A DNA stretch of 13,647 nt from positions 1 to 13,647 of the forward strand of contig CAMNFW010000031.1 in assembly GCA_946537565.1 (NCBI GenBank). The letters run 5' to 3'. The position numbers and the translations under genes were made by a program. The DNA comes from an uncultured Ruminococcus sp. (GTDB lineage: Bacteria; Bacillota; Clostridia; Oscillospirales; Ruminococcaceae). The notes under the pieces were generated by a model. That model was given only the letters and a program-made list of their open reading frames with translations. It had not been told where the DNA came from and ran no database searches. Shown one piece after another: positions 1,733 through 13,446 of this stretch (position 1 is its first letter; each line of letters begins with the position of its first letter).

Positions 1733-3556
1733 TCAGCTCTCTTCCTGTATGACCTTCCAAAGCTCACGGGCTGTTTCAATATTAACTCCAGCTGTGACCG
1801 CAAGCTCCTCCGGCGATGCCTTGAGAAGATTGTCCCTGGTCTTGTATTTCAGCATTATCTTATCCGCTTTTTTCTGACCTATGCCCTTTACTGTCAGCAG
1901 TACGGAGCTGTAGGTCTTTTTCTTATGCCGAGAGTGCATGAAGCTGACTGAATAACGGTGTACCTCGTCCTGAATCCGGGTCACAAGGTCAAAGGCTGAG
2001 CGTATATGGTTTATTTGTATCTCTCTGCCGCCGGTGGCTATGGCACGGGTGCGGTGCTTGTTATCCTTCACCATGCCGAAAAGTGCTATATTCAATCCCA
2101 GCTCTCTAAGCAGCGGCTGGATCGTGTTAACGTGTCCCTTTCCGCCGTCAAGAAGTATCAGGTCAGGTGTACGGTTGAAATACTCATCTCCGTCCTGGTT
2201 GATAATGTGCATAAGTCTCCGCTTAAGCACCTCACGCATACTGCCATAGTCGTTCTGGAGCTGTTGTTCTTTTATGGTGAAACGCTTATAGGCTTTTTTC
2301 TGGGGTCTGCCGTCCTCAAATACCACCATTCCTGCTACCATTGATTCTGACGAAAGATTCGATATGTCATACGCTTCGATATACTTAGGCGGACGCTCCA
2401 GTCCCAGCAGCTTTCCCAGCTGTTCAAGGGCTATGACCTCTCTTCCTGTCCGGTCATTTTTCAGCGCCGCATACTCTGCGGAATTATTCTTTGCCAGTCT
2501 CAGCAGCTCAAAAAGCCTGCCCTTCTGAGGCTGCTGAAGCTTTACGCTTCTGCCGGTTCTTTTCTCCAGCATTTCGGTGATTATATCACTCTCCGCCGGA
2601 ATATGGTCAACGGCTATTATCTTCGGTATATCCTCACGGCTGTGATAATACTGGGCAAGAAATAAACTCAGTATATCCTCCTCAGTTTTTTCAAGCTCGA
2701 AAACTGCCTTGTCATACAAACGGTTTTCACGGTACATCAAAACTGAAACATATATTCCTTCATAAAATTCCGCTATGCCTATTACGTCTGCTGACTCAAC
2801 TCCGCTGTTTATCATTTTCTGCTTTTCTGATGCCTTCTTGACCGCTATTATCCTGTCTCTCAACAGCGCTGCTTTCTCAAAATCAAGCTCCTCTGCTGCC
2901 TGCATCATCTCCCGTTCCATGCGCTCTACTGAATCTGCACTTCCGGAGCGTATAAATTCCACTGCCTGTTCAACGGTATTCCGGTAGGTCTCCTTGTCAA
3001 TGTTTCCCCGGCATACTCCCATGCACAGCTTTATCTGATAGTTCAGGCAAGGTCGCTGTTTGCCGAAATCCTGCGGAAAACGTCTTGTGCAGGTGGGAAG
3101 CATGAACACCCGGTTCGCCTCATTCACCGCTTCCTTTGTAACTGTTCCGCTGATATACGGTCCGAGATATCTGCCGCCTGCCTGCGTATTCTTTTCATTG
3201 GTGATGCGTGGATATTCTTCATCTGAGATCCGGATATAATGATATCCCTTGTCATCTTTAAGCAGGATATTATACTTCGGCTTATGCTGCTTTATCAGGC
3301 TGCATTCCAGCAGCAGCGCTTCACATTCACTGTCGGTAACAATGAAATCATAGTCATACACGTTCGAGACCATTGCGGCTACCTTCGGAGTATGATCTGG
3401 ATTCTCCCGAAAATAACTGGTCACTCGGTTTTTCAGGTTTTTAGCCTTGCCGATGTATATTATGCCGCTGTCCTTATTTCTCATTATATAAACTCCCGGC
3501 GAGCTGGTCAGCTTTGACGTTTTCTCCCGGAGATACGGCAGTCTTTGATTCATCAT
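1733..3556 (-). CDS. uvrC: Excinuclease ABC subunit C (UvrC)
   Basis: This 607-residue protein is full length for UvrC, the dual-incision nuclease of nucleotide excision repair that acts with UvrB on damaged DNA. A GIY-YIG domain occupies about 19-98 (GVY at 21-23, YIGKAKNL at 34-41, Arg44, SECEALLLE at 76-84). Four cysteines at 156, 170, 178 and 182 match the spacing of the iron-sulfur cluster reported for UvrC. A UVR/UvrB-binding helix pair spans about 211-235. The C-terminal RNase H-like nuclease shows Asp397 (AYDISN), Asp470 (LLDGGKGH) and His533, then tandem helix-hairpin-helix motifs (about 552-600). AGGAGG precedes two adjacent ATGs. The first is only 3 nt away and the second (3553) 6 nt, so translation may begin at the second. 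The gene has its own leader, and I could not identify a clear promoter. Confidence 0.97.
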   Translation of the reverse strand: MMNQRLPYLREKTSKLTSSPGVYIMRNKDSGIIYIGKAKNLKNRVTSYFRENPDHTPKVAAMVSNVYDYDFIVTDSECEALLLECSLIKQHKPKYNILLKDDKGYHYIRISDEEYPRITNEKNTQAGGRYLGPYISGTVTKEAVNEANRVFMLPTCTRRFPQDFGKQRPCLNYQIKLCMGVCRGNIDKETYRNTVEQAVEFIRSGSADSVERMEREMMQAAEELDFEKAALLRDRIIAVKKASEKQKMINSGVESADVIGIAEFYEGIYVSVLMYRENRLYDKAVFELEKTEEDILSLFLAQYYHSREDIPKIIAVDHIPAESDIITEMLEKRTGRSVKLQQPQKGRLFELLRLAKNNSAEYAALKNDRTGREVIALEQLGKLLGLERPPKYIEAYDISNLSSESMVAGMVVFEDGRPQKKAYKRFTIKEQQLQNDYGSMREVLKRRLMHIINQDGDEYFNRTPDLILLDGGKGHVNTIQPLLRELGLNIALFGMVKDNKHRTRAIATGGREIQINHIRSAFDLVTRIQDEVHRYSVSFMHSRHKKKTYSSVLLTVKGIGQKKADKIMLKYKTRDNLLKASPEELAVTAGVNIETARELWKVIQEES

Positions 3557-3573
3557 ATTCCTCCTTCCTGTGG

Positions 3574-3619
3574 AAAGCTCTTAGGGGGAAAACCCCTTTT
3601 CCTAAAACTTTTAGCTTCT
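3574..3619 (-). promoter_or_regulatory. Imperfect inverted repeat in the uvrC leader
   Basis: Reading on the minus strand, CTAAAA-G-TTTTAG (3614-3602) forms one perfect short hairpin. TTAG (3605-3602) can instead pair with CTAA (3584-3581) around GGGG-TTTT-CCCC (3596-3585), and an outer AAGCT/AGCTT pair extends this second fold. The two folds share 3602-3605. The structure lies within 65 nt of the uvrC start. It could be a leader control element, part of a dispersed inverted repeat or a weak terminator; nothing here decides which. The remaining gap up to 3750 shows no gene or clear promoter. Confidence 0.4.
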
Positions 3620-3750
3620 TGATGTATAGCTGCTGATTTCCGCCGCCCATGAAAAGTAAACTGTCACTGAACCGCCGTTGTTAAAAAAGTAACATGAACC
3701 AAAATCGGATTACAGAAATAGTTGCACCACAAAGTACCGCAGATGTCGTT

Positions 3751-3918
3751 GTGCTGTATGCGATCGAAATGTAACTAATCACGAAAAGAGTAAGCGAGTT
3801 TATGAGCGGCAACGTGAGCCAAAAAAGTGCTGTATGCGATCGTATGTTACAAATTTCAAAAAGAGTGAGCGAGTTTATGAGCGGCAACGTGAGCCAAAAA
3901 AACGTGAGCCAAAAAAAA
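3751..3918 (+). repeat. Tandem 76-bp A-tailed repeat, two units plus short tail
   Basis: Units begin with GTGCTGTATGCGATCG at 3751 and 3827, a period of 76 bp. Each continues through GAGTRAGCGAGTTTATGAG and GCGGCAACGTGAGCC into an A6-A7 tract. A shortened third unit, ACGTGAGCC plus A8 (3902-3918), closes the array, exactly as in the copy at 1-119. The middle of the unit (about 17 nt after CGATCG) is the least conserved part. The open frames running through it translate the repeat and show no ribosome binding site, so I do not call a gene. The final A-tract is shared with the secDF terminator. Confidence 0.88.
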
Positions 3919-3942
3919 GCGGATATGGTATCCGCTTTTTTT
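3911..3942 (-). terminator. Intrinsic terminator of secDF
   Basis: AGCGGATA (3918-3925) pairs perfectly with TATCCGCT (3929-3936) around a 3-nt loop. The flanking A7 and T6 extend the stem. Read from the minus strand, the hairpin starts 5 nt after the secF stop and ends in T8, the complement of the repeat's A-tail. The T-run on the other strand would also allow termination of plus-strand transcripts. Confidence 0.93.
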
Positions 3943-3947
3943 GATTA

Positions 3948-4946
3948 TTATGCCTCTTCCTTTGAGGATTTCTTGCCGCCGGACTTGCCCTTTCTCTTGT
4001 TCTCTATCCATGACCATGTTACCGGTGCTACGAACAGTGATGTGTAAGTTCCGGAGATAAGTCCAAATACCAGCGGAAGTGAGAAGCTCAGCAGTGATGT
4101 GTAACCGCTTACCAGCACTACGATCGTTACTATCACCATCGTTCCGATTGTTGTGACAGATGTTCTTATCGAACGGGTAAGTGACTGCGTACAGCCTAAA
4201 TTGATAAGCTGATTCAGTGTTGCCTTCGGATAAAGCGTTCTGTTCTCACGGATACGGTCGTATATTACGATGGTATTGTTAATTGAATAACCCAGTATCG
4301 TCAGTATTACTGCTACTACATTGGAGTTGAACTCGAATCCAAATATGATCGATGCTGCCAGTGCTACTGCCAGATCCTGACAAAGTGCAAGCACTGAGCA
4401 GATACCTGCTGTCCAGCCGCCTATCTTGCGGAATCTTATCGCAATGTATATGATGATCACTATTGCCGCAAATATTATCGCTATAAGACACTTAAGCAGG
4501 AATTCTCGTCCAGATGTCGGGCTTACATCGTTGGAGTCCGAAAGCTCAATTTCATTGTCCGGCATCGCTGTCTGGAGCGCTTCTGTAAGCTCATGCTGTC
4601 TGTCAGCGGTTAAGCCTTCGTTTGATGTAAACGAAATTGTCATTTCCCTTCCGCCGCTGTTAAGACTCTCACCAGTACGAACTGTTACATTCGTATCAAC
4701 TACGCCCTTTACTGTGCTTTCAACATCTGCGGTGCTGATATCGCCGCTGTAGGTGTAAGTCAGCATTGTGCCGCCCTTGAACTCGATCGCAAGCTTTACT
4801 CCTCTGATAAGTATTCCCAGAAGAATCGCTGCAATTACACAGATTCCGATCACAAGGATCATTTTCTTCTTCCCGCAAAAGTTATATGCTTTAATATTCT
4901 CGATAGCGTTAACCTTTGCTTCGGAGGTTTTCTTTTTCTTGCTCAC
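3948..4946 (-). CDS. secF: Protein translocase subunit SecF
   Basis: This 332-residue membrane protein, with SecD, assists SecYEG by using the proton (or sodium) gradient to pull exported proteins across the membrane. A first membrane helix lies at about 28-50, followed by an external domain opening with EFKGGTMLTY (about 55-64), and then membrane helices at about 150-170, 178-204, 208-228, 263-281 and 285-310. The tail is Lys-rich. GYSINNTIVIYDRIRE (219-234) is the SecF signature, but the Asp usual at the second position after SIN is Asn224. The start codon is GTG, overlapping the secD stop as GTGA, with GGAGGTGAAG just upstream. The 4-nt overlap suggests coupled translation. The terminator follows at once. 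Confidence 0.95.
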   Translation of the reverse strand: MSKKKKTSEAKVNAIENIKAYNFCGKKKMILVIGICVIAAILLGILIRGVKLAIEFKGGTMLTYTYSGDISTADVESTVKGVVDTNVTVRTGESLNSGGREMTISFTSNEGLTADRQHELTEALQTAMPDNEIELSDSNDVSPTSGREFLLKCLIAIIFAAIVIIIYIAIRFRKIGGWTAGICSVLALCQDLAVALAASIIFGFEFNSNVVAVILTILGYSINNTIVIYDRIRENRTLYPKATLNQLINLGCTQSLTRSIRTSVTTIGTMVIVTIVVLVSGYTSLLSFSLPLVFGLISGTYTSLFVAPVTWSWIENKRKGKSGGKKSSKEEA

Positions 4947-6352
4947 TTTTCTTCACCTCCATAAAGCTTTCTGTTCTGGAGTCCCTTGAACTTTGAAAGG
5001 GAGGTTACCATAAGTCTTGCAAAGAATACACCAAAGATGAAATTGCATACTACACCTGCAAGGAGTGTGAAGCCAAAGGAGTATACTACACCCTCAGTTG
5101 TTGCTCCAAACATGAAGAATATCGTCTTGTTCAGTATCTTCGAGAAGAAACTGCTCGGTACGCCAAATGCACCCATAAGTATTACTGCAATAAGTACGTT
5201 GGTTACATTACCGTCAAGGATTGCAGAAAATGCTCTCTTGTAAGCAACTCTTATTGATGAATCCAGGGATTTTCCGCTGCGAAGCTCTTCCTTTATACGC
5301 TCACCTGTGATGATGTTTGCGTCAACTCCCATGCCGACTGAAAGTATGATACCTGCAATGCCGGGGATTGTAAGGGTCGAGCCGGGCATAAAGCCAAACC
5401 AGCCTGTTATCGCTGCAAGTGATCCTGCGATCTGTCCGCACAGTGCAAGTACAGCTACAAAACCAGGCAGCCTGTAAAGTACGATCATGTAAATAGCTAT
5501 GAATATGAATGCGATAAGTCCTGCAAGAAGAATCGCATCAAGTGATCCTTCACCCATTGTCGGTGAAATGGTTTTGAAGCTCTTGGTCTCCATTTTGAAC
5601 GGGAGCGCACCGGAATTGATCTGGTCAGACAGCTGCTTTGCAGACTCGTTGGTGAAGTTTCCGGTGATAACTGCGTTTCCGTCAGTGATAGCGCTGTTTA
5701 CGGAAGGTGCGGATATCATTGTGCTGTCCATCCATATGGATATCGGTGTGCTTGAACCAGCCAGCTCTGCGGTCGCTTCTGCAAACTTTGATGCGCCGTT
5801 GGAGTTGAGTGAGAGCAGCACTACCCACTGATAGTCGCCGTAATCATCCGGCTGCTGTCCATAGCTTGCCTCTGCAATGTCCTCGCCGTTGAGAACTATC
5901 TCGCCGGTGGGAACAGTATTTCCGTCCTCATCAGTTTCAGAATCAGTGCCCTTGCGGAAGGTCAGCTCAGCCATTTCGCCCAGCTCCTTTACGGCAGCTT
6001 CCGGGTCGAAGTTGCTCTCTCCTGCCTGCCAGGGGAAACGAACGATGATCCTGTCGCTCTTATTGTCGCTGTATACCTCGTTATCGTTGATACCAAGAGA
6101 GCTAAGTCTTGTCTTGATTATCTCGGTGGCAGCATCCAGCTGAGCTTCTGTGGCATCATAGTCACCGGCAGGTGCGAAAGTCACGTCAACACCGCCCTTG
6201 ATGTCTATACCCAGTCGGATATCATCAACGCCTTTTACGACAACAGTCTCGTTGTCACCATAGAAATAATTGAATCCTAAGGTTGCCGAAACTGCAAACA
6301 GAACAATAAAAGCAACGACGATGAAGAAAGTCGATTTTCCAATCTTTTTCAC
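4943..6352 (-). CDS. secD: Protein translocase subunit SecD
   Basis: This protein of about 469 residues is the partner of SecF in post-initiation protein export. Numbering from the upstream ATG, it has one N-terminal membrane helix (about 11-29), the motif RLGIDIKGGVDVTF (48-61), a large external domain to about 270, and five further membrane helices (about 275-450). The transport motif GMGVDANIITGERIKEEL keeps the conserved Asp (346). A candidate ATG lies at 6358, but AGGAGG (6365-6360) is only 1 nt from it. The in-frame GTG two codons later (6352) has a 7-nt spacer, so I prefer GTG; the alternative adds only Met-Thr. It overlaps secF by 4 nt and has its own promoter downstream of the ATP synthase operon. 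Confidence 0.93.
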   Translation of the reverse strand: MKKIGKSTFFIVVAFIVLFAVSATLGFNYFYGDNETVVVKGVDDIRLGIDIKGGVDVTFAPAGDYDATEAQLDAATEIIKTRLSSLGINDNEVYSDNKSDRIIVRFPWQAGESNFDPEAAVKELGEMAELTFRKGTDSETDEDGNTVPTGEIVLNGEDIAEASYGQQPDDYGDYQWVVLLSLNSNGASKFAEATAELAGSSTPISIWMDSTMISAPSVNSAITDGNAVITGNFTNESAKQLSDQINSGALPFKMETKSFKTISPTMGEGSLDAILLAGLIAFIFIAIYMIVLYRLPGFVAVLALCGQIAGSLAAITGWFGFMPGSTLTIPGIAGIILSVGMGVDANIITGERIKEELRSGKSLDSSIRVAYKRAFSAILDGNVTNVLIAVILMGAFGVPSSFFSKILNKTIFFMFGATTEGVVYSFGFTLLAGVVCNFIFGVFFARLMVTSLSKFKGLQNRKLYGGEEK

Positions 6353-6375
6353 AGTCATGCCTCCTATTCAGATAT

Positions 6376-6413
6376 GCCGGCTCTTCCTTCTCAGCAGACT
6401 GTGAGCTGCCGGC
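6376..6413 (-). promoter_or_regulatory. Hairpin in the secD leader
   Basis: GCCGGC at 6376-6381 and again at 6408-6413 (self-complementary hexamers) can form a 6-bp stem. A second stem, CTCA (6390-6393) with TGAG (6402-6405), can form inside it. It lies about 10 nt upstream of the secD Shine-Dalgarno in the predicted transcript. No T-run follows, so it is not a terminator. Its function is unknown, and it could simply protect the 5' end or tune translation. Confidence 0.4.
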
Positions 6414-6643: not shown

Positions 6644-7054
6644 TTACTTAAAATGCTTCTGGGATACCTTAAGCCTGTTCATCGCACGGTTGAGGGCTGC
6701 CTGAGTCTGGTAGTACTCAACTATGCTCTGCTTCTGGCGGAGCGCTTCTTCGGCACGCTGTTTTGCTTCCTCAGCACGCTTTATGTCTATCTCCTCCGGA
6801 AGCTCGCAGGAATCCGCAAGTATTACTGCCCTGTCCGGCTGCACCTGTATGAATCCCTCGGATATGGCGGCGTATTTCCACTGTCCGTCCACCATATATT
6901 TCAGCTCTCCCGTGGGAAGCACAGTTACCAGCGGCTCGTGACCTGCCATTATTCCCATGAGACCGTCTATCGCTGTTATCACAAGATGCTCGGTCTCGCC
7001 CTGAAAAAATATGCGGTCAGTTGCGATTATTTCGAGTTTAAAGGTCTTTGCCAT
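6644..7054 (-). CDS. atpC: ATP synthase F1 subunit epsilon
   Basis: This 136-residue protein is the usual length for epsilon, which sits on the central stalk with gamma and restrains ATP hydrolysis. The N-terminal beta-sandwich (about 1-86) carries the family motif GLMGIMAGHEP (31-41). The C-terminal helical hairpin (about 87-130) is rich in Ala, Glu, Arg and Lys, as in regulatory epsilon subunits. AAGGAGGT lies 4 nt before the ATG, and the gene starts 10 nt after the atpD stop. It is the last gene of the operon. The 290 bp beyond it contain the secDF promoter and leader but no gene. Confidence 0.96.
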   Translation of the reverse strand: MAKTFKLEIIATDRIFFQGETEHLVITAIDGLMGIMAGHEPLVTVLPTGELKYMVDGQWKYAAISEGFIQVQPDRAVILADSCELPEEIDIKRAEEAKQRAEEALRQKQSIVEYYQTQAALNRAMNRLKVSQKHFK

Positions 7055-7064
7055 AATGACCTCC

Positions 7065-8611
<1,547 letters not shown>

Positions 8612-9523
8612 TTAATCTTCTTTAAGACCGTTGGCACCGCCGCAGACCTCGGTTATCTCCTGAGTTATTGCAGCCTGTCTTGCCCGGTTATACATCAGCG
8701 AAAGGTCTTTTATCATATCCTTTGCACTGGTGGTGGCTGCGTCCATTGCCGTCATTCTCGACTGCTGCTCACAGCAGAACGCTTCTACCATTGCACCGTA
8801 GATTATACCCTTTGCATACTGGGGTATGAGATAATCCATTACCTCCTCCGGCGACGGCGAGAACGATGCCTTCGGCAGCTTCTTTATTGTGCCGTCCGCA
8901 GCCTTTCCGAAATGCCGCCGCTCAAAAGGCAGCAGCCGGAGAGTTCTTGTCTCCTGAACATTCGATGTGACCATATCGGTATACAGCAGGTATACTTCGT
9001 CCAGCTCTCTTGCCTTGAACTTTTCTATCACAAGCTCAGCTATCTCCATTGCCCTGTAGAGGGTGGGATTCTGGGTGGTGTAGAGAAATTCACTGTCAAC
9101 GCTGGCTTTGTTCTCATTCCTGCTCCTGCGCTGGAAGTACATTCTTCCAACCTGTCCCATTACGAACAGATAGCAGTTGCTGAGGTCAGCAGTCTCGTTC
9201 AGGGTCTGCTCGGCATATTTCAGTATGTTATGATTATAGCTTCCGCAGAGTCCCTTGTCTGCGGTTATGACGATATATCCCTTTTTGCGCTTATCCTCCG
9301 GAATATCCGAACGTCTGTCAAAAAACAGCTGCTTGGTATGGGGAGTATGTTCAAGGACGCTTTCAATGGTCTCCTGGAGCTTGTAAAAATACGGCTCGGT
9401 GGAATCCAGGGATTTTCTCGCCTTTTTAAGCTTTGAAGAGGACATAAGATACATCGCATTGGTTATTTTCAGTATCTGCTGTATACTTGCTATCCTCTCC
9501 CTGATCTCTCTCATATTGGGCAT
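8612..9523 (-). CDS. atpG: ATP synthase F1 subunit gamma
   Basis: This 303-residue rotor shaft subunit has an N-terminal helix with MREIRERIASI (4-14) and KITNAMYLMSSSKLKKA (19-35), the usual partner of the C-terminal helix in the coiled coil. The central Rossmann-like domain lies between. The C-terminal signature ITQEITEVCGGANGL closes the protein. It is slightly longer than the typical 285-290 residues. The start follows the atpH-atpA stop by 11 nt, with GGGGTG as ribosome binding site. A second ATG three codons in would also fit the family but has poorer spacing. Confidence 0.97.
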   Translation of the reverse strand: MPNMREIRERIASIQQILKITNAMYLMSSSKLKKARKSLDSTEPYFYKLQETIESVLEHTPHTKQLFFDRRSDIPEDKRKKGYIVITADKGLCGSYNHNILKYAEQTLNETADLSNCYLFVMGQVGRMYFQRRSRNENKASVDSEFLYTTQNPTLYRAMEIAELVIEKFKARELDEVYLLYTDMVTSNVQETRTLRLLPFERRHFGKAADGTIKKLPKASFSPSPEEVMDYLIPQYAKGIIYGAMVEAFCCEQQSRMTAMDAATTSAKDMIKDLSLMYNRARQAAITQEITEVCGGANGLKED

Positions 9524-9534
9524 AGCTTCACCCC

Positions 9535-11562
9535 TTATTCCTCATAGGCTGTGAGTATCTTCTCAATGCGCTCCATAAGGTCATCGGTAAGCACCTTTCC
9601 TTCGTCGATCTCAGTGATTATATCCTGACCGTAGGAACGGATATAGCTCATAAGATCACTGCAATGCTCCTTAAGCTCCTTAAGCGGTATGCCGTCAAAG
9701 AAACCATGCTGGGCTGCATAGAGAAGTATGACCTGTTCATGGTGGGGCAGCGGATTGTACAGCGGCTGTTTCAGCAGCTCTGTAAGCATATGTCCGTGGT
9801 TGAGCAGATCGGTGGTGGACTGGTCAAGCTCTGAGGAGAACTGTGTGAATATCTCCATTTCCTTGAACTGGGCAAGGTCTATACGGAGATTTCCCGATGC
9901 CTTTTTCATTGCCTTTGTCTGGGCTGCACCGCCTACACGGGATACCGAAAGTCCATAGTTGACTGCCGGACGAAGACCTGAATTGAACAGCTCGCTCTCC
10001 AGGAATATCTGTCCGTCTGTTATGGATATAACGTTGGTGGGGATATATGCTGAGATATCTCCCGCAAGTGTTTCTATTACCGGCAGTGCTGTAAGCGAAC
10101 CGCCGCCGTGTTCATCGTCAAGACGGCTGGAGCGTTCAAGAAGCCTTGAATGAAGATAGAATACATCTCCAGGATATGCCTCTCGTCCCGGCGGTCTGTG
10201 AAGAAGCAGCGACATCGCACGGTATGCAACTGCGTGCTTTGAAAGGTCATCGTATATTATCAGCACATCTTTGCCCTTTGACATGAAATATTCAGCTATA
10301 GCTGTGCCTGAATACGGCGAAATGTACTGGAATGGCGCAGGCTCGCTGGCTGAGGCTGATACTACTACTGTATAAGCCATTGCATTGTACTTCTTAAGAG
10401 TATTCACCACCTGTGCAACTGTTGAGGACTTCTGTCCGATTGCAACGTATACACAGATAACGTCCTGACCTCTCTGGTTTATTATCGTATCAATTGCGAT
10501 AGAAGTCTTTCCGGTCTGGCGGTCGCCTATGATAAGCTCACGCTGTCCCCGTCCGATAGGGAACATCGAATCTATCGCAAGTATACCCGTCTGGAGCGGC
10601 ACGCTTACCGGCTTTCGCTCAATAACGCCAGGTGCTTCACGCTCAATAGGAAAGTAATCCTCTGCTTTTATTGTGCCCAGTCCATCAATAGGACTTCCCA
10701 GCGCATCGACTACTCTTCCCAGAAGCTCGTCACTTACACCGATTCCGGCACGCTTTCCTGTTCTGACTACCGACGAACCTTCCGTCAGTCCGTGGTCATC
10801 GCCAAGAAGCACTACGCCTACGCCCTTTTCTTCAAGATTCTGTACGATACCCCTGACACCGGTCTCGAACTCCACCAGCTCGCCGTACATTACAGAATTC
10901 ATTCCCTTTACGGAAGCTATACCGTCGCCCAGTCTTACGATGAAGCCGGTCTCAGTAGCACCGGACTTTACTTCAAAATCCTTGACCTCAGTTTTGAGAA
11001 CGGATATGATATCGCTTTTTGCTGACGGCTTGTCAGCGTTATTTTCTGCAACTTCCGCAGCCTTGCTTTGGAGCGTATCCTTCATAAGTCTGAGGCTTGT
11101 GCGGTAGCTCTTATCGTACTCGATATCGCCGGCTGTAAGGATAAAACCGCCCAGGATATCCGGGTCCTTCCGGTACTCGATATCCACGTCCTCCTTGACG
11201 AATCTTTCCATTATGAATTTTTTAAGGTCAGCCTGCTGAGTGTCGGTAAGAGGCGTAACATAGCGGACTACGACCTTTATGCTGCCCTGCTTTTCGATAA
11301 GCACATCGGTATACTCTTCAAGTATATCCTTAACTTTTTCAACAGCACCGTTCCGCACTGCGCTCATCATGAAGCGTTCAAGGCTTGCCGGAAACAGCTT
11401 TTTTATGATGCTGTTTTTCTCGTCATAAGTCACAAGGGGATTTGACAGAGTTTCAGCCACGTCCGGACAGGCTGTGAAGACATTCTTTGCCGCAGCTGTA
11501 TCCTCCCTGGATATATTCAGGCGGATAAGCTCTTTAAGCATATCCTTCGGATTCACCTTCAT
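9535..11562 (-). CDS. atpHA: Fused ATP synthase F1 subunits delta and alpha
   Basis: This single 675-codon frame encodes two normally separate subunits. Residues 1-165 are delta/OSCP, the peripheral-stalk cap: LSNPLVTYDEKNSIIKKLF (39-57) and the C-terminal DPDILGGFILTAGD (133-146) match the family, but the first helix with the usual RYAxAL is missing. A linker rich in Ala, Glu, Asn and Lys (about 166-181) leads into alpha. Its N-terminal helix SDIISVLKTEVKDFE (183-197) is retained, then RLGDGIASVKG (210-220), P-loop GDRQTGKT (346-353), LIIYDDL (434-440), and the signature PAVNYGLSVS (532-541) with the arginine finger Arg542. The alpha part is about 495 residues, normal length. Between the domains there is no stop, no Shine-Dalgarno and no ATG except Met160, which lies before delta ends and lacks a ribosome binding site. 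The gene starts in a 4-nt ATGA overlap with atpF. Confidence 0.95.
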   Translation of the reverse strand: MKVNPKDMLKELIRLNISREDTAAAKNVFTACPDVAETLSNPLVTYDEKNSIIKKLFPASLERFMMSAVRNGAVEKVKDILEEYTDVLIEKQGSIKVVVRYVTPLTDTQQADLKKFIMERFVKEDVDIEYRKDPDILGGFILTAGDIEYDKSYRTSLRLMKDTLQSKAAEVAENNADKPSAKSDIISVLKTEVKDFEVKSGATETGFIVRLGDGIASVKGMNSVMYGELVEFETGVRGIVQNLEEKGVGVVLLGDDHGLTEGSSVVRTGKRAGIGVSDELLGRVVDALGSPIDGLGTIKAEDYFPIEREAPGVIERKPVSVPLQTGILAIDSMFPIGRGQRELIIGDRQTGKTSIAIDTIINQRGQDVICVYVAIGQKSSTVAQVVNTLKKYNAMAYTVVVSASASEPAPFQYISPYSGTAIAEYFMSKGKDVLIIYDDLSKHAVAYRAMSLLLHRPPGREAYPGDVFYLHSRLLERSSRLDDEHGGGSLTALPVIETLAGDISAYIPTNVISITDGQIFLESELFNSGLRPAVNYGLSVSRVGGAAQTKAMKKASGNLRIDLAQFKEMEIFTQFSSELDQSTTDLLNHGHMLTELLKQPLYNPLPHHEQVILLYAAQHGFFDGIPLKELKEHCSDLMSYIRSYGQDIITEIDEGKVLTDDLMERIEKILTAYEE

Positions 11563-12128
11563 GAAGCGTCATCCTCCTTCTGAGAGAGGAATTCATCGAC
11601 CAGCTTACGGTTCTTTTCGTCGTCAAGATTTGCGCCGACCACCTTTGATGCAGCTTCGATAGCCAGGTCAGCGATCTCGGACTGAGCCTGCTGGAGAACT
11701 CTTCTGCGCTCGTTCTCGATAGTTTTTCCGGCATCAGCGATTATCTGGTCAGCCTCTTCCTGGGATTTTTTGATGATAGCAGCCTTTTCGTTCTCTGCGT
11801 CCTCATGGGCTTTCATGATGATTTTTTCAGCCTCAGCCTTGGCGTCGCCCAGGTCTTCCTCATACTGTTTTTTAATCTCCTCAGCCTCCTGCTTAGCTTT
11901 CTCAGCATCGTCTATATCCTTCTGAATGGACTGAGTTCTGTCGTCCATGAGCTTATTGATAGGCTTGAAGAGAAAAATTCTGAGAAGTATGAAGAGCAGG
12001 ATTATATTGACTGCCGGCCAGATGAAATTCCATATATTTACATCAAGCATCGTGCCGTCCAGTGCAGAGCCTTCCTCTGCAACTGTAATGATATTCCAGC
12101 TGCTGATATTCAGCAATGTGCTAAACAT
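11559..12128 (-). CDS. atpF: ATP synthase Fo subunit b
   Basis: This 189-residue peripheral stalk subunit has an N-terminal membrane helix (about 31-54, in IWNFIWPAVNIILLFIL) followed by FKPINKLMDDRTQSI and a long, highly charged helix (about 58-185) that dimerises and binds delta. About 25 residues precede the membrane segment. A start at Met27 would remove them, but AAGGAAGAG lies 5 nt before the first ATG and nothing lies before Met27, so I keep the long form. It overlaps the delta-alpha gene by 4 nt (ATGA), suggesting coupled translation of the stalk parts. Confidence 0.96.
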   Translation of the reverse strand: MFSTLLNISSWNIITVAEEGSALDGTMLDVNIWNFIWPAVNIILLFILLRIFLFKPINKLMDDRTQSIQKDIDDAEKAKQEAEEIKKQYEEDLGDAKAEAEKIIMKAHEDAENEKAAIIKKSQEEADQIIADAGKTIENERRRVLQQAQSEIADLAIEAASKVVGANLDDEKNRKLVDEFLSQKEDDAS

Positions 12129-12151: not shown

Positions 12152-12373
12152 TTATTTAAGCAGAAAGATTATAAGTATCGCAATTACGAAGCCATAGATA
12201 GCTGTTGCTTCTGCCAGAGCGCAGCCGAGAAGGAGCGCCTTGTTGATATCACCCTTAGCCTCCGGCTGACGGGCAATGGATTCTGCTGCCTTTGCGGTAG
12301 CCAGACCGATTCCTATACCTGCGCCTGCACCGGTGAGAACGGCGATAGCAGCGCCTAATGCAATAGTTGACAT
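12152..12373 (-). CDS. atpE: ATP synthase Fo subunit c, second copy
   Basis: This 73-residue proteolipid is the rotor-ring subunit that carries ions across the membrane. It has two membrane helices (about 5-30 and 47-72), the polar loop ARQPEAKGD (34-42) and the ion-carrying Glu55. The protein is identical in every residue to the copy at 12481-12702, although the DNA differs at about 25 positions. GGAGGT sits 7 nt before the chosen ATG. An in-frame ATG 19 codons upstream lies in the spacer and would add a non-family extension, so it was rejected. At Na+-ring ligand positions it has Ile22 for Gln and Ala56 for Ser but keeps Thr57 and Tyr60, which favours H+ as the coupling ion. Confidence 0.97.
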   Translation of the reverse strand: MSTIALGAAIAVLTGAGAGIGIGLATAKAAESIARQPEAKGDINKALLLGCALAEATAIYGFVIAILIIFLLK

Positions 12374-12480: not shown

Positions 12481-12702
12481 TCACTTGAGCAGGAATATGA
12501 TAAGTATAGCGATTACGAAGCCGTAGATAGCGGTTGCTTCTGCCAGCGCACAGCCAAGAAGGAGTGCCTTGTTGATGTCGCCCTTAGCCTCCGGCTGACG
12601 AGCGATAGATTCTGCTGCCTTTGCGGTAGCCAGACCGATTCCTATACCTGCGCCTGCGCCTGTAAGAACGGCGATAGCAGCGCCTAATGCGATAGTGCTC
12701 AT
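12481..12702 (-). CDS. atpE: ATP synthase Fo subunit c, first copy
   Basis: This is the promoter-proximal of two tandem c genes; its 73-residue product is identical to that of the second copy. AGGAGG lies 8 nt before the ATG, and the gene begins 21 nt after atpB. The sequence contains the R35-Q36-P37 loop and the membrane Glu55 in CALAEATAIY. Silent differences from the second copy include a Ser2 codon switch (AGC here, TCA there), which needs more than one base change. The duplication is therefore not recent unless gene conversion acted on parts of it. With ring stoichiometry near 10, a second gene copy may simply raise dosage. Confidence 0.97.
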   Translation of the reverse strand: MSTIALGAAIAVLTGAGAGIGIGLATAKAAESIARQPEAKGDINKALLLGCALAEATAIYGFVIAILIIFLLK

Positions 12703-12723: not shown

Positions 12724-13446
12724 TTATTTAGCTTTTGCAGTATTGTGGTGTTCTTCTTCCTCTGCGCCCTCCATTGCCTCTGCCATGAACAGCGAGGTCA
12801 GGAAGACGAAAACATACGCCTGGATACAGCCGTCGAAAATATCAAAATAAAAGCTCAGCACCAGCGGTACTCCCACTGGTATAACCATTTTTATAAGCTC
12901 CATTACTACGAATGCGCCCAGTACGTTTCCGAAAAGTCGCATACAAAGTGACAGAGGTTTTATGAACAGCTCCAGGATATTTATTGGCAGCAGCAGCGGC
13001 ATTGGTTCGATGAAGCTGTGCAGCCAGCCGCCGAAGCCACGCTCACGGATACCGCTGAACTGTATCAGAAGTATCGCAAAAGCTGCCATTGCAGCGGTTA
13101 CGCCGATATCCTTCGTTGGCGGTCTGAGACCAAACAGTCCCACGATATTTGATATACCTATATAAATAAGGAATGTTTCCAGTATCGGCAGATATTTTTT
13201 ACCCTTCGGACCGAGTATTTCCAGGAAGAAATTATTCATCCAGTTGATACCTATTTCCAGCAGACACTGTGTACCTGTGGGGACTTTTTTAAGTTTTCTG
13301 ACCAGAAGTATTGAAGCGATGACCACCACCAGCATTATACCCCAAGTCATTACGCAGGATTCCGGGACGGGAATTCCGCCAAAAATTGGTATTGTAAAAG
13401 CTGTCCTGCATTCAAGCTCTTCCATAAGCTTTTCACCGATGTCCAT
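12724..13446 (-). CDS. atpB: ATP synthase Fo subunit a
   Basis: This 240-residue membrane subunit forms the ion half-channels beside the c-ring. The essential Arg170 lies in SLCMRLFGNVLGAF (166-179), and the C-terminal helix GCIQAYVFVFLTSLFMAEAM (206-225) is typical. Several membrane helices are visible (about 35-50, 86-106, 117-131, 152-165 and 175-200). I chose the ATG at 13446, 7 nt after AGAAGGTG. An in-frame ATG 46 codons upstream (13584) coincides with the predicted transcription start and cannot be used. It is the first gene of the operon; no atpI or other gene precedes it in the window. Confidence 0.96.
   Translation of the reverse strand: MDIGEKLMEELECRTAFTIPIFGGIPVPESCVMTWGIMLVVVIASILLVRKLKKVPTGTQCLLEIGINWMNNFFLEILGPKGKKYLPILETFLIYIGISNIVGLFGLRPPTKDIGVTAAMAAFAILLIQFSGIRERGFGGWLHSFIEPMPLLLPINILELFIKPLSLCMRLFGNVLGAFVVMELIKMVIPVGVPLVLSFYFDIFDGCIQAYVFVFLTSLFMAEAMEGAEEEEHHNTAKAK

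Follow-up and report, generated by a model that had tools for sequence, protein, structure and literature searches.

Complete delta and alpha subunits of F-type ATP synthase encoded as one polypeptide in Ruminococcus

A single gene of an uncultured Ruminococcus sp. encodes both the delta and the alpha subunit of F-type ATP synthase. In the 13,647-nucleotide stretch of DNA analyzed here (the window), positions 9535 to 11562 of the minus strand hold a complete delta (OSCP), a variable linker and a complete alpha in one stop-free frame of 675 amino acids. The gene encodes delta and alpha at a ratio of 1:1, as against the one delta per three alphas expected of an F-type enzyme. The first-pass annotation had pointed out that three delta domains per enzyme would result if the gene is translated as read, and this is supported at the gene level. 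We put the probability at about one half that the delta-alpha chain is used whole, in three copies per F1, which would provide three docking sites and let the head take on b2 stalks beyond the first, together with an a-subunit for each. That the protein remains uncleaved, and the number of stalks in the window enzyme, are both points that we infer.

The operon and the domains of the fused protein

The F-type ATP synthase operon lies on the minus strand in the order a-c-c-b-[delta-alpha]-gamma-beta-epsilon, and Pfam matches in seven proteins of the window cover all eight F-type subunits (a, c, b, delta, alpha, gamma, beta, and epsilon). Upstream of the fused gene are atpB (subunit a, 240 amino acids; 12724 to 13446; ATP-synt_A), two copies of atpE (subunit c; ATP-synt_C), and atpF (subunit b, 163 amino acids; 11559 to 12050; ATP-synt_B). 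The lengths of a and b are counted from the likely ATG as judged from the translations, the mechanical open reading frames extending to 13584 and 12128, respectively; subunit b is 162 amino acids long in 20 of 29 relatives. Downstream, Pfam identifies atpG (gamma, 303 amino acids; 8612 to 9523), atpD (beta, 465 amino acids; 7065 to 8462), and atpC (epsilon, 136 amino acids; 6644 to 7054), all on the minus strand. The ATG of the fused gene overlaps the stop codon of b by 4 bp and is preceded by an AGGAGG ribosome-binding site within the end of atpF (11573 to 11578, minus strand).

The tandem c genes (copy 1, 73 amino acids, 12481 to 12702; copy 2, 12152 to 12373; both on the minus strand) encode identical proteins despite differing at 26 of 222 bases (196 identical). 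Two c open reading frames are present in at least 24 of the 35 Ruminococcus loci examined, some of which are incomplete. Where paired c frames were compared (23 loci, leaving out L009), they were 86 to 97% identical in DNA and 94 to 100% in protein, the protein being the same in 13. Elsewhere in the window, a 62-amino-acid protein with a DUF6472 match (1451 to 1639) follows a gene for a CorA-like transporter, and positions 1733 to 6358, on the same strand as the adjoining ATP synthase operon, carry UvrC, SecF-like, and SecD-like Pfam matches. An Rfam search of the window returned no match.

In the 675-residue protein, Pfam detects OSCP at residues 19 to 164 (E 3e-25) and the three alpha domains ATP-synt_ab_N (204 to 269), ATP-synt_ab (326 to 541), and ATP-synt_ab_C (548 to 672). 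Based on the AlphaFold2 model and an alignment, the delta N-terminal domain comprises residues 1 to 95 (11278 to 11562, minus strand). The delta C-terminal domain, which in known enzymes is the part that binds b, comprises residues 98 to 164 (11071 to 11271, minus strand), where the OSCP match ends; the model places strands and a helix at 94 to 173. A variable linker of low model confidence follows (residues 166 to 182; 11017 to 11067, minus strand), then the N-terminal helix of alpha (residues 183 to 195, SDIISVLKTEVKD; 10978 to 11016, minus strand), nearly invariant within the genus, and the alpha core (residues 204 to 675; 9538 to 10953, minus strand; Pfam). The model has a mean pLDDT of 73.4 and a pTM of 0.60. 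It predicts a six-helix delta N-domain (residues 5 to 91), a C-domain sandwich, and a low-confidence stretch at 170 to 202; ten-residue means of pLDDT are 62 to 86 over residues 1 to 90, and parts of the alpha core fall below 50.

An alignment of 30 fused genes revealed no stop in any of them and an SD-like site at the start of the fused gene in all 30. The first-pass annotation had described an unbroken run from delta into alpha through a short polar linker. The frame is borne out by the open reading frame, its Pfam domains, and its maintenance across the genus. A linker is indeed present; however, the linker proper amounts to only about 10 to 20 residues, variable in length and sequence, after which the alpha N-terminal helix begins (SDIISVLKTEV), hardly changed across the 30 genes.

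The fused gene is fixed in the genus

When relatives were searched for the same frame, it was found stop-free and at full length in 53 of the 60 genomes of the genus, with identities of 67 to 85% (the window itself, 100%). In two further genomes the fusion is kept as far as it is visible: the frame begins at a contig end in G035 (match to residues 133 to 674) and is split inside alpha in G032. In three genomes that are 64 to 82% complete (G016, G021, and G036), the genus search found no F-type alpha. The first-pass annotation would have taken an unfused atpH and atpA at the same position in near relatives as evidence against a fusion, and this does not hold for the genus. Separate genes are the sole form in two of the 60 genomes (G015 and G053), where they are of the canonical kind (L075 and L080); four others (G020, G033, G041, and G042) have separate delta and alpha genes in addition to the fused gene. 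Among the best 120 of 1701 protein relatives are entries from Ruminococcus flavefaciens, three of which (P0013, P0040, and P0104) have a UniRef name starting with "Multifunctional," and the fused frame is present in an R. flavefaciens protein cluster (P0083) whose longest contig is 3.6 Mb. The window belongs to a draft assembly of 310 contigs, where a sequencing or assembly error might join two genes; yet the same frame in 53 of 60 genomes and in the cluster with the 3.6-Mb contig excludes such a frameshift or artefact, and we regard its probability as negligible.

Are free delta and alpha also produced?

The first-pass annotation saw three ways out of the stoichiometric conflict: the protein is cleaved, alpha is also made separately, or the peripheral stalk is built differently. 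The window genome, which is 90% complete, contains one OSCP match, and no second delta was found in it. Nor did the genus search find a second F-type alpha in it: the genome has six matches at E ≤ 0.001, the fused protein and beta are among those listed, and a separate F-type alpha would be expected at about 600 bits, as among the matches listed for other genomes.

An internal start could also yield free alpha, and each head would then combine one fused and two free alphas. In favor of this, the codon for Met160 (window residue) is kept in 28 of the 30 aligned genes; however, just 1 of these 28 has an SD-like site, and in the model Met160 sits within the last delta helix (153 to 173). A gamma-gene control for SD sites performed poorly (5 of 29), probably owing to first-in-frame starts, and control windows within the same genes were used instead. 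A start with an SD at the junction was seen in 2 of 36 Ruminococcus genes, versus 5% of control windows. Such a start also occurs in 3 of the 11 fusions of the delta C-domain alone that were examined (18 were given and the rest skipped), which would favor an internal start; the control there is 17%. The other full-length fusions gave 0 of 8 (9 given; control 19%) and the fusions that include b gave 1 of 6 (control 12%). No conserved internal start was found at the junction in either the 30 aligned or the 36 Ruminococcus genes. The suggestion that alpha is also made separately is therefore unsupported, given this count at the junction and the lack of a detectable second F-type alpha, and we consider it very improbable.

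Alternatively, the chain may be cut in the linker after translation, yielding ordinary delta and alpha, with the surplus delta degraded. A linker that varies in length and sequence and is modeled at low confidence would suit this scheme. On the other hand, a conserved linker motif was not seen by eye across the 30 aligned genes, two thirds of the delta produced would be wasted, and relatives that lack the N-domain or that also include b (see below) would gain little from fusing first and cutting later. We therefore judge cleavage unlikely. Conservation in the genus, the failure to find another delta or F-type alpha, and the lack of a conserved internal start together favor the use of the whole chain, and a peripheral stalk that is built differently is the best supported of the three ways out.

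The delta C-domain appears unusually constrained

Among 36 Ruminococcus fusions, mean identity is 0.812 for the delta C-domain and 0.552 for the N-domain, whereas in 23 canonical deltas the two are close (0.344 and 0.290). When pairs with an alpha identity of 0.82 to 0.90 are compared, C-domain identity is 0.785 in fused proteins (142 pairs) versus 0.465 in separate deltas (9 pairs), and N-domain identity is 0.491 versus 0.379 for the same numbers of pairs; these pairs lack independence, and the canonical deltas span a wider range than the Ruminococcus set. Because of these matched-alpha identities, the fused C-domain appears to be under unusual constraint and the N-domain does not seem to decay more than is usual. 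This conservation of the C-domain could stem from contact with alpha rather than with b.

We also considered whether the N-domain is decaying. Identity at matched alpha divergence does not support this, and only the loss of a tyrosine in helix 1 favors it: this residue is Tyr in 4 of 36 Ruminococcus fusions (Phe in 11, Leu in 18, and others in 3), and it is Tyr in all 23 canonical deltas, in all 9 other full-length fusions, and in 6 of 7 separate deltas of the main group of fused loci.

Related stalk arrangements in Bacillota

Operons were read in other genomes across the family, order, class, and phylum. Beyond Ruminococcus, nine loci carry full-length delta-alpha fusions (L062, L064, L094, L095, L102, L103, L104, L130, and L131). 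Other relatives have the delta C-domain alone fused to alpha (572 to 654 amino acids as mechanical frames; e.g., L066, L067, L100, L105, L139, and L222), the N-domain being absent in kin such as L067, L105, L100, and L222. One locus (L089, 5541 to 7568) encodes two tandem delta C-domains followed by alpha, with two Pfam OSCP stretches. In L083 to L088, a stand-alone delta C-domain gene of 72 to 74 amino acids lies between b and alpha (Pfam OSCP positions 104 to 172 in L083 and 104 to 170 in L087); it has neither an N-domain nor a fusion for attachment. In L082, the gap between alpha (4182 to 5678) and b (5905 to 6405) holds a delta C-domain with an in-frame TAG, which may reflect decay, error, or readthrough, and L097 (5399 to 6154) encodes a separate delta of 251 amino acids carrying an extra C-domain.

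Fused frames were also counted in samples. In the order, OSCP matches within an open frame of 579 or more amino acids occur in 33 of 245 genomes, and 20 of the 33 were read; the corresponding count for the family is 11 of 119. In the phylum sample (378 genomes), at least 14 genomes, some of them in other families, have a frame of 585 or more amino acids that spans the delta C-domain and alpha without a stop; ten of the 14 loci were read (the window, L103, and L222 to L229). No F operon is present at the locus in L074 and L098, and L081 and L085 are interrupted by contig ends. Separate and fused genes occur together in at least ten genomes (G020, G033, G041, G042, G112, G168, G093, G264, G531, and G671).

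A further arrangement joins b, the delta C-domain, and alpha in one protein of 736 to 755 amino acids (L090 to L093, L136, and L137), with a separate b gene upstream. The b part is N-terminal, OSCP positions from about 98 on come next, and alpha follows; Pfam was run on L090, L091, and L093, and the b match of L093 falls below the Pfam cut-off. A scan of 84,980 species with a b-deltaC query yielded 378 confirmed relatives, and a protein search yielded 974 relatives. The best 80 of the 378 (L142 to L221) are all metagenome-assembled genomes of Clostridia, from Oscillospiraceae and similar groups, and most of their sample labels are ruminant, rabbit ("Lapin"), or horse gut. Within these 80, the triple frame is whole in 71 (734 to 789 amino acids), and 66 have an open reading frame of 100 to 230 amino acids just upstream, the position of the separate b in annotated loci. 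In the remaining nine the full frame was not found by the script, several of these being short contigs. On these gene counts the triple fusion is common. It would anchor every alpha to the membrane if uncleaved; a structure model of the triple fusion (six sequences, mean pLDDT 49) was too poor for use.

Evolutionary history

Beta is independent of the fused gene, and a tree was built from 72 beta sequences; L069, whose beta is broken, was left out, as were loci lacking a full beta. On this tree the fused and unfused states require at least six changes. A single clade of all 39 fused entries was rejected (p 2.7e-83), as was a placement of the 31 main-group fused entries apart from the separate-gene entries nested among them (p 3.9e-124). 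Both constraint tests rule out one ancestral fusion without return, and because a single fused clade is rejected, the fused state must have arisen or been lost repeatedly. Gain and loss appear indistinguishable here, as fission back to two genes would look like repeated fusion.

The separate genes of L075 have a beta that groups with canonical operons; the contig of L080 carries no beta, so this locus is unplaced. Separate delta and alpha genes do occur in another family whose beta genes are close relatives (L120 and L129). In L120, delta and alpha overlap by 4 bp and alpha has a similar helix start; on beta, this locus falls in a group with L102, L130, and L131, all of them fused. Among 31 separate-gene loci (mechanical starts), delta and alpha overlap by 4 bp in 12 and share a frame in 7, so the fused state seems easy to reach.

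Comparison with known enzymes and the number of stalks

In known enzymes, b2 binds delta, which in turn touches the N-terminus of each of the three alphas; the delta N-domain lies on the symmetry axis (PMC12229609, PMC5214741), where the wild type has room for one; this domain is said to restrict the wild-type enzyme to one stalk (PMC12229609). The closest likeness to the window protein is the Bacillus PS3 enzyme engineered by Ueno et al. in 2025, in which delta residues 2 to 104 were removed and the C-domain (105 to 178) was fused to alpha (PMC12229609). A fold search with the window model placed chains of 9jc1, which its title, release date, and molecule name link to that paper, at ranks 1, 2, and 4, and among the 50 matches listed their alignments span 577 to 578 columns versus about 469 to 512 for other chains. 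In both proteins the delta C-domain is joined by a short linker to the alpha N-terminus, with three copies per F1 where the chain is used whole. However, the PS3 enzyme is man-made and lacks the N-domain, whereas the window protein is natural and retains the N-domain; it has the one-frame fusion of C-domain and alpha that marks the engineered class, and not the absence of the N-domain. According to the same paper, the delta C-domain is fused to alpha in nature too, in Acidaminococcus fermentans and in two UniProt entries, for which its authors predict multiple stalks (PMC12229609). The A. fermentans protein is likewise a natural delta-alpha fusion; its N-domain is absent, whereas that of the window is present (PMC12229609). 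The first-pass annotation, which knew of no characterized delta-alpha fusion, is therefore out of date. The available part of PMC12229609 makes no mention of a full-length fusion, a b-deltaC-alpha fusion, or repeated origins, and a search of the open-licence literature (preprints excluded) found no other account of a delta-alpha fusion. The window protein thus appears to be a further variant of a known fusion, and what seems to be new is that the N-domain is kept, that b can be included, and that such fusions are recurrent and widespread in the phylum.

Two other systems differ more. A b-delta fusion is found in Mycobacterium and Gordonia (PMC5709465); there too delta is covalently bound to another stator subunit, but it is joined to b, whereas in the window b is separate (11559 to 12050) and delta is linked to alpha, so that an enzyme built from whole chains would have three. 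The N-ATPase operon lacks delta and has the order beta-epsilon-a-c-b-alpha-gamma (PMC5709465), whereas delta is present in the window and the gene order differs, which places the window operon outside the N-ATPases.

We propose that the fused chain stays intact and that each F1 head would contain three of them. Every alpha would then bear its own delta C-domain, the part that binds the b2 stalk, and stalk attachment would no longer depend on a single delta settling at the center of the head. The three docking sites could accept b2 stalks beyond the first, every one paired with an a-subunit. More protons would then be used per ATP, and the enzyme could operate on a weak proton-motive force. A rotary ATPase head with multiple outer stalks has a precedent in the V-ATPase with three peripheral stalks, although its stalk parts differ from the F-type b and delta of the window.

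The constrained C-domain, the engineered multi-stalk PS3 enzyme, and relatives whose fusions comprise the C-domain only or include b favor this reading. The PS3 enzyme bears as many as three stalks and a-subunits, contains 2.2 times as much a and 1.8 times as much b as the wild type and has an H+/ATP ratio of 5.8, and cryo-EM assigned 0, 1, 2, and 3 stalks to 15, 51, 26, and 8% of particles, respectively (PMC12229609); that most particles had none or one (15% and 51%) counts against the multi-stalk reading. In our reading, the window enzyme has three alpha-borne docking sites and probably more than one stalk.

Because the N-domain of the window protein is intact, a single stalk is a serious rival, though in our view the less probable one. 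Three fused chains would be present, with one N-domain in the central pit and its C-domain holding b2; the other two delta domains would be unoccupied passengers, and the fusion would serve no purpose beyond ensuring stoichiometry and assembly. The retained N-domain, with its intact predicted fold and ordinary conservation, agrees with this, as does the room for just one such domain on the wild-type axis (PMC12229609). On the other hand, a single stalk leaves unexplained the relatives with a fused C-domain and no N-domain, the triple fusions that place a b helix on every alpha, and the high constraint on the C-domain.

Implications

Because the window enzyme has kept its N-domain, it provides a test from nature of whether, as has been claimed, that domain holds the number of stalks at one. 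More broadly, and tentatively, we suggest that natural multi-stalk F-type ATP synthases may be widespread in gut Bacillota, having evolved many times by placing delta, or b plus delta, on every alpha. If this is true, the b-deltaC-alpha gene would itself force three membrane-anchored stalks on each head, proton-to-ATP ratios would roughly double or triple, and genomes with both canonical and fused operons would possess a two-gear system. How many protons an ATP costs is one of the basic constants of bioenergetics, and its natural variation is thought to come mainly from the size of the c-ring. Should these enzymes carry several stalks and a-subunits, they would represent a second natural way to set that cost, in gut fermenters that perhaps live on small gradients.
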